Below, piece by piece: positions 31,001 to 31,985 of a stretch of DNA of 34,207 nt. A program made the position numbers and the translations under genes. The stretch comes from a virus. Location of the stretch: IMG/VR virus record IMGVR_UViG_3300011116_000171, positions 1-34,207 of that record; one strand, written 5' to 3'. How positions within the stretch are numbered: position 1 is the first letter of the stretch; each line of letters starts with the position of its first letter. The notes under the pieces were generated by a model, which did not search any database, was not told where the DNA came from, and saw only the letters and a list, made by a program, of their open reading frames with translations.

Positions 31001-31014
31001 TTAAGATACCCTAA
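31001..31014 (+). promoter_or_regulatory. Operator-like site C on the repressor start codon
   Basis: TTAAGATACCCTAA keeps one exact half site (TTAAGA) and 4 of 6 bases of the other. It ends on the A of the repressor ATG. A weak TTGATT lies at 30984-30989, but with a 17-base spacer the -10 would be a poor TACCCT. TATAAA at 30971-30976 is an alternative -10. Binding here would block the gene's own expression. Confidence 0.45.
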
Positions 31015-31244
31015 TGAATCCAACAGCTATTATTAATATCTTGGGCGGTGCAACAAAGGTGGCCAAACTCTGTGGAGTTTCTGTGCCAGCGGTATCTATG
31101 TGGCAAAAAAGCGACATTCCCCGCGATAAATTGATATTTTTAGCCGCAACGCTAGAACGCGAAACCAACGGGCTAATTACCCGAAAAACGCTATTTCCCA
31201 CGACTTACGGGATTATTTGGCCTGAGTTGCACAACCGGCAATAG
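31014..31244 (+). CDS. Cro/YdaS-like HTH repressor
   Basis: The 76 aa product has a helix-turn-helix from about residue 9 to 40 (GGATKVAKLCGVSVPAVSMW then QKSDIPRDKLIFLAATLE). This is the layout of the Cro/YdaS family of small phage regulators, in which the KVAKL-G-VS-AVSMW section is the DNA-reading unit. It is divergent from the SSB/exonuclease operon, and operator-like palindromes lie on both sides and on its start codon. It is the only transcription regulator I find. With no CI-size partner and no integrase, it more likely times early gene expression than maintains a prophage. No clear ribosome-binding site precedes the ATG. Confidence 0.82.
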   Translation: MNPTAIINILGGATKVAKLCGVSVPAVSMWQKSDIPRDKLIFLAATLERETNGLITRKTLFPTTYGIIWPELHNRQ

Positions 31245-31256
31245 TCAGGTTATACT
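31228..31256 (+). promoter_or_regulatory. Promoter-like sequence before the structured RNA
   Basis: TGCACA (31228-31233) and TATACT (31251-31256) are spaced by 17 bases, 4/6 and 5/6 matches. The -10 lies just after the repressor stop codon, so transcription would start near 31263, where there is no gene but there is strong RNA structure. Confidence 0.45.
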
Positions 31257-31262
31257 GTGCTG

Positions 31263-31386
31263 GCAGAGTGATGTCTGTTCAGTTTTGCCTACCACAGACC
31301 CTTTCGGGTTGCTTTGAGTGTTTACTAAATGGTTGGTAGGCTATTTATTAAACAACATCACCTTAGAGCAACCCCAAAGGGTTTTT
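31263..31386 (+). ncRNA. Candidate structured RNA with pseudoknot, ending in a terminator
   Basis: Arms 31299-31318 and 31362-31381 pair over 20 positions (17 Watson-Crick, 2 G-U, 1 mismatch), followed at once by TTTTT. Inside them, 31319-31330 pairs with 31343-31354 (11 of 12), with a 7-base bulge on one side. The apical loop TGGTAGGC (31334-31341) is fully complementary to GCCTACCA (31287-31294), 5' of the stem, giving an 8-bp pseudoknot. The G-U pairs favour selection as RNA over a DNA cruciform. It could be a separate small RNA or the 3' end of the repressor messenger. No Rfam family is recognised by eye. Confidence 0.6.
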
Positions 31387-31392
31387 CTATTT

Positions 31393-31570
31393 CTGCGGTC
31401 ACAGTTGGACGGGAACCGACACCAGCGACTGCGATACAAGTGCTACTGGGGGATAGTTGTTGCAACAGCACATAAACCGGTGGCGAAGTTAGTGCCGGTA
31501 CAACGAAAGACTGACGGGTTCTGTTGGCTCCATGAGGCAGATGAAGGCGAACCTAGGAAGGCTGGGTTCG
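31393..31570 (+). ncRNA. Second block of hairpins, possible non-coding RNA
   Basis: The elements are: GCGGTC 31395-31400 with GACTGC 31427-31432 around GTTGG 31404-31408 with CCGAC 31416-31420; GTGCT 31440-31444 with AGCAC 31467-31471 stacked on GTTG/CAAC 31456-31466; ACCGGT 31476-31481 with GCCGGT 31494-31499; and CGAACC 31548-31553 with GGTTCG 31565-31570. A 91-codon frame crosses the area (31318-31593), but it has no ATG, no ribosome-binding site and many codons rare in this genome. No end signal is seen. The sense strand is assumed from the first block. Confidence 0.4.
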
Positions 31571-31632
31571 TTCCACCAAAAGGCAGAAGTTAATCATTAC
31601 TAACATATAATATATAAAATACTGCAAAATCA

Positions 31633-31727: not shown

Positions 31728-31985
31728 ATGTACGACAAAACAGCAGAAAAAGCCGCGATTGCAATTAGAAATGCAATGTATGAAAACCCAGCTTGGCACG
31801 TTGGACGCCATAACGATGGCACACCAGCCCTTGATATTGACGCAATGAACCGCGAACTTGAGGATGGTTTGATTGAAGGCTGGCTTGGCATTAAAGAAGT
31901 TGAGGCCTGCACCCTTTCACAGTGGTCTTGCGCGATGGATTGGTTGATTGCTCAAGAACGCGATGCTAACCTCGCTGACCAATAA
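31728..31985 (+). CDS. Hypothetical early protein (85 aa)
   Basis: AAGGAG precedes the ATG. The acidic product has a helix-rich N-terminus (MYDKTAEKAAIAIRNAMYEN), then HVGRHNDGTPALDIDAMNRE and LEDGLIEGWLGIKEVEACTL. The family is unknown. It is the first gene behind module D and so probably the earliest rightward product. Possible roles include host takeover, but there is no motif evidence. Confidence 0.65.
   Translation: MYDKTAEKAAIAIRNAMYENPAWHVGRHNDGTPALDIDAMNRELEDGLIEGWLGIKEVEACTLSQWSCAMDWLIAQERDANLADQ

Follow-up and report, generated by a model that had tools for sequence, protein, structure and literature searches.

A conserved pseudoknotted RNA module with a predicted terminator, upstream of exchangeable RNA classes in phage genomes

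The locus and the fold of the module

This analysis concerns a predicted RNA element of about 125 nucleotides (nt), hereafter the module, on the plus strand of the IMG/VR virus record IMGVR_UViG_3300011116_000171; the window is the whole stretch analyzed, positions 1 to 34,207 of that record. The gene order of the window is lambda-like, with holin, endolysin, exonuclease and further early genes on the minus strand, followed by a Cro/YdaS-like gene, small genes and a replication-initiation gene, and the module is located between cro and the replication-initiation gene. As the original prediction, made from the sequence alone, had it, the element directly follows a repressor gene; the preceding gene stops at 31244 and matches P22 Cro and YdaS. 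The features of the locus are:

31014..31244, plus strand: Cro/YdaS-like gene immediately 5' of the module (Pfam P22_Cro, 3.6e-9, and YdaS, 1.3e-7; PHROG transcriptional repressor, 7.5e-13)
31228..31256, plus strand: putative sigma-70-like promoter, TGCACA-17-TATACT, with the -10 hexamer ending 6 nt 5' of P0 (sequence pair; TATAAT-like hexamer in relatives)
31263..31386, plus strand: double-pseudoknot terminator module, a predicted RNA of about 125 nt (covariation; covariance model R1, 128 bits)
31263..31278, plus strand: P0 hairpin, 31263-31267 with 31274-31278, strand a in its loop (100% paired cells across the 38 representatives; pairs of type GU/GC and AU/GU/GC)
31268..31274, plus strand: pseudoknot strand a, partner a' at 31355-31361 in the bulge between P2 and P1 (double changes in 6/7 pairs)
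31287..31294, plus strand: pseudoknot strand b in the linker, partner b' at 31334-31341 in the P2 loop (partner-swap test, 0/10,000 permutations)
31298..31382, plus strand: P1 stem, 31298-31304 with 31376-31382 and 31306-31318 with 31362-31374 (99.1% of cells paired, double changes in 5 pairs)
31320..31353, plus strand: P2 stem, 31320-31331 with 31342-31353 (98.0% of cells paired, double changes in 7 pairs)
31382..31386, plus strand: predicted intrinsic-terminator U-tract, T5 (run of at least five T in 76/76 unique modules)
31392..31396, plus strand: post-terminator tail TCTGC, able to pair with GCAGA at the 5' end of the RNA, 31263-31267 (helix PZ, which excludes P0; partner swap 2/5000, extension 103/10,000)
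31398..31519, plus strand: downstream RNA, RF02932 Betaproteobacteria-1 RNA (Rfam, 101.4 bits; gathering score 49.4)
31520..31588, plus strand: 3' extension of RF02932 outside the Rfam model, conserved in relatives, with two covarying direct repeats (AGGCAGA in the window; comparison of loci)

The two stems proposed originally, of 20 and 12 positions with one mismatch each, are present where they had been placed: P1 comprises 7 and 13 pairs separated by a single C.C mismatch, and P2 comprises 12 positions including one mismatch. The perfect 8-base complement between loop and upstream sequence corresponds to b/b', and the TTTTT at the stem end to the U-tract. P0 and a/a' are additions to that description, each backed by covariation. 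The fold of the hairpin has a z-score of -6.07, and none of 200 shuffled sequences folds as well. No Rfam family matches 31263-31386, in agreement with the earlier remark that no phage RNA of such form is known; the only hits to the hairpin are microRNA matches below the gathering score, which we rejected as chance, far under the thresholds. The literature searched likewise holds nothing on the module.

Conservation and covariation among relatives

Two sets of relatives were compared, a close set of 38 representatives with less than 90% identity and a divergent set of 38 representatives with less than 80% identity. In the close set, 98.8% of the cells in the four columnar helices are paired, compared to 88.5% in shuffles; 19 of the 43 pairs show changes on both sides, and sliding the partners abolishes the signal. 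Strand b is not alignable in columns and was therefore tested by partner swapping, in which a strand paired with its own P2 loop scores 9.18, versus 5.06 with foreign loops (0/10,000 permutations). The nested double complementarity is also found in the divergent set (0/5000), with the qualification that permutation counts throughout overstate independence, because many of the loci are mutually related fragments of environmental metagenomes. A covariance model built from the close group alone retrieves eleven divergent modules located 5' of RF02932, each at E <0.0001. Strands a and b are variable, whereas the surrounding frame is kept. All 76 unique close-type modules found by stems have at least five T in a row, some of these loci coming from a scan whose pattern demanded a T-run.

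Covariation, the absence of which had been named beforehand as speaking against an RNA, is overwhelming among the relatives. A conserved protein frame, also named beforehand, is excluded: the lengths of the relatives differ by non-multiples of three, so that no reading frame could be conserved through the module, and the coding explanation was rejected. We also dropped a strand exchange between the linker, from P0 to strand b, and P2, because the linker, judged by eye, contains no changes that track P2. The sequence comparisons support a phage RNA of about 125 nt that is structured and pseudoknotted and carries a predicted terminator, and they strongly support a new RNA family in which a nested double pseudoknot is built onto that terminator.

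The module, present in many freshwater phages, is essentially viral, since, in a covariance model search, it was absent from 26 of the 27 cellular loci recovered with RF02932, the sole exception being one metagenome-assembled genome. No further module match passed strict filters in 399 bacterial genomes of the same family, and the contig of that assembly is possibly viral itself. Compared with named phages by blastn, the window region produced chance matches only. The same architecture was recognized by eye in a complete phage genome, MW202674.1 (Podoviridae sp. ctn9Y15), after a Cro-like gene and before an RNA of class iii (see below); this copy has a fold z-score of -7.95 and has diverged too far for the covariance model to find it. 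At that locus (L329, 5007-5377), the class iii RNA beside the module is covered in GenBank by tiny hypothetical genes of the minus strand, which are probably spurious. A protein ending in the motif W/F-P-E is encoded just 5' of the module in 98 of 168 unique cases, and in some loci other genes precede it.

RNAs downstream of the module

The original prediction envisaged a small RNA of roughly 125 nt. The structured, pseudoknotted, terminator-ended part of that proposal stands; what changes is its status as a stand-alone RNA, because RF02932, absent from that account, begins 12 nt 3' of the T-run, and the relatives regularly carry an RNA-like element in the same place. Two scans with the hairpin alone yielded 169 module hits, whose downstream sequences were assigned to classes by short sequence motifs. 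RF02932 follows 42 of the hits, class ii 50, class iii 40, class iv 27 and class v four; one hit precedes a different, unassigned sequence, and five were cut off. Thus, RF02932 or one of classes ii to v lies directly 3' of the module in 163 of the 164 hits with sufficient downstream sequence. When 16 loci, including examples of classes ii to v, were compared with Rfam, only RF02932 and one tRNA were matched. Classes ii to v (L122-L275) are RNA-like stretches of about 190-285 nt without an Rfam match among those scanned. Class iii is structured, with double changes in 17 of 36 predicted pairs, and class iv, by eye, apparently also carries covarying direct repeats.

The association was also examined starting from the downstream side. 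Independent scans found the module at all 37 unique class ii loci and at 86 of 97 unique class iii loci, the other 11 being without it. A scan of IMG/VR for the RF02932 core gave at least 119 stretches. Among the matches listed, about half of the 105 unique RF02932 loci have a long stem with a T-run ending at a nearly fixed distance upstream; these stem-score counts include a few doubtful cases, with at least 52 clear ones, the window among them. Many of the RF02932 loci without the module, in the same set, show a promoter-like sequence at that place by inspection, and the module therefore seems to sit between promoter and RNA. In three loci (L038, L109 and L377), a different, simple hairpin without a T-run is found in this slot, before RF02932 and before class iii.

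Judging from these sequences, the module is exchanged independently of the downstream RNA. In one contig of 35,746 bases, two copies of the class iii RNA are 98.4% identical, whereas their modules are only 63.9% identical. These copies (L457 and L458) lie at opposite ends of the contig, which perhaps joins two strains at the ends of a circular genome or else contains a true tandem copy.

Viral RF02932 loci extend about 70-100 nt past the Rfam model and carry two short direct repeats. The repeats covary between loci, with a shared length of 6.8 within a locus versus 5.2 with foreign repeats (0/5000), and no complement to them was found within the RNA body, a hint that both may pair with a single partner outside the RNA. 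A search for pairing between the module and the RF02932 body gave a null result. RF02932 itself is dispersed in Burkholderiales genomes (Paraburkholderia, Caballeronia and relatives; L276-L327) as a stand-alone element, often in several copies, some of which are truncated on the 5' side or the 3' side (L290 and L325; L283 and L309).

Proposed role, alternatives and known systems

The interpretation we favor, with a confidence that stops a little short of even, is that the module serves a phage non-coding RNA as its promoter-proximal leader and is a pseudoknotted intrinsic terminator that limits read-through into the RNA downstream. Host RNA polymerase would start at about 31263, and the nascent RNA would form P0 and a compact fold in which P1 closes the two pseudoknots (a/a', b/b'). 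Most transcripts would stop at the U-tract, producing the RNA of about 125 nt, and a minority would read through into the downstream RNA, RF02932 here and other classes elsewhere. In the longer RNA, the first nucleotides would re-pair from P0 to the post-terminator tail, forming PZ, and the leader would close into a 5' domain next to the downstream RNA. In this way, the module would set the amount, timing or condition of that RNA.

Several observations are consistent with this scheme. The promoter-like pair reported originally at 31228-31256 is present and placed for a start at P0, and most representatives have a TATAAT-like hexamer about 6-10 nt 5' of P0 (read by eye); taken alone, the pair is not above chance (3 found versus 1.8 expected in shuffles). 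The G+C-containing stem P1 is followed at once by the U-tract, as in an intrinsic terminator, and no promoter is seen in the approximately 12 nt between the terminator and the downstream RNA. In the divergent representatives, the complementarity of the tail UCUGC to the module's own 5' end GCAGA exceeds that of swapped partners in all but 2 of 5000 permutations. Beyond the 5-base-pair core the evidence for PZ is weaker (103/10,000), and an A or AA 5' of GCAGA is matched by T or TT 3' of UCUGC across different downstream classes. The read-through RNA is probably functional, because PZ excludes P0 and needs the read-through RNA to form. An antisense immunity RNA of the P4 CI / P1 c4 type pairs in trans with the leader transcript to which it belongs; the complementarity of tail and 5' end seen here can equally be read as a helix in cis.

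Other results weigh against the proposed role. The promoter scores of individual loci are modest, with a mean of 9.7 versus 8.4 in shuffles and p <0.05 in 11 of 39, and PZ is not seen in every divergent type. No conserved antiterminator pairing was detected, the 5' region matching the two P1 arms no better than swapped partners do (2066 and 565 of 3000). Neither arm having a conserved alternative partner, the module does not appear to be a classical switch, and we rejected the attenuator or riboswitch reading in its classical form, in which an alternative helix disrupts the terminator. Given that no classical attenuator is supported, a regulator, if any, would have to act by other means (a protein, a phage antiterminator or a ligand bound by the pseudoknot); alternatively, the terminator would set a fixed ratio. 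No regulator was identified and no antiterminator gene was recognized.

Among the alternatives, we regard as unlikely, although worth keeping in view, that the terminated RNA of about 125 nt is itself the product, a trans-acting small RNA that binds a protein or another RNA, with the downstream RNA being a separate gene expressed by another route. The promoter-like start, the compact fold, the strong predicted terminator and the variation of strands a and b within a kept frame would all suit such an RNA; its fixed place directly 5' of other RNAs, with no promoter seen between them, and the lack of detected pairing with the RF02932 body would not. Strands a and b are, moreover, consumed within the fold, which disfavors a simple antisense role. 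It is quite improbable, in our assessment, that the fold serves mainly to protect the downstream RNA at its 5' end or to direct processing there, for instance through cleavage of P1 by RNase III, with termination being incidental: the plain hairpin without a T-run in the same slot at L038, L109 and L377 fits this possibility, as does PZ, which would close the 5' end beside the downstream RNA, whereas the universal conservation of the U-tract in the pseudoknotted type argues against it. An element acting at the DNA level, such as a replication origin, a recombination site or a mobile insertion with the GCAGA/TCTGC inverted repeat at its boundaries, would be compatible with the exchange of the module as a unit, with its ends coinciding with this short repeat and with the replication-initiation gene that follows. 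We consider it very improbable, because G-U pairs conserved on the plus strand (for example, columns 64-112, GU in 38/38) would be A-C mismatches on the opposite strand, a pattern expected if the RNA is made from the plus strand alone, and because the promoter-like element, the U-tract and RF02932 all lie on one strand.

A wider reading, somewhat less likely than the role of a terminating leader, is a hitherto undescribed RNA cassette system. In it, this conserved leader would govern a slot in which unrelated structured RNAs (RF02932 and no fewer than four classes absent from Rfam) are exchanged, and read-through would let the 5' end of the RNA pair anew with the distal part of the leader; the RNAs in the slot would then form a functionally equivalent set. 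The findings add an RNA family with strong support, in which an unusual nested double pseudoknot sits on a predicted terminator, and place RF02932, an orphan Rfam RNA, in a wider set of apparently interchangeable phage RNAs behind one leader, which offers a direct experimental handle on what these orphan RNAs do.

Structured phage RNAs that end in a terminator are a known kind; we know of no description of the nested double pseudoknot or of an exchangeable slot for unrelated downstream RNAs. RF02932 adjoins the module in the window and is most likely co-transcribed with it, but the module has a structure of its own that the Rfam model does not cover; it also precedes other RNAs and is missing at half of the RF02932 phage loci among the matches listed and at nearly all cellular ones. 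In type III toxin-antitoxin systems, the ToxI RNA of phages or plasmids is pseudoknotted and has a terminator behind it, which permits limited read-through. The module, likewise a pseudoknotted phage RNA with a putative terminator and possible read-through, differs in its topology and in lacking tandem repeats, and no ToxN-like gene follows: a Pfam search with the next gene (31728-31985) returned no match, hence no ToxN-family toxin gene was identified downstream. Lambda nutR/tR1 and HK022 put lie at the corresponding place in the genome, from cro to the replication genes; the put RNA binds RNA polymerase during elongation and suppresses terminators further along. Compared by description rather than by sequence, the module has a different RNA structure and its own promoter-like element, without a recognized antiterminator gene, and it follows other upstream genes as well. 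With intrinsic terminator attenuators and the expression platforms of riboswitches, the module shares a promoter-proximal leader whose stem and U-tract lie 5' of an expressed sequence; unlike them, it has two covarying pseudoknots in place of a conserved antiterminator helix and would control a non-coding RNA rather than a gene. If the gate is real, transcription termination would here control non-coding RNAs instead of genes.
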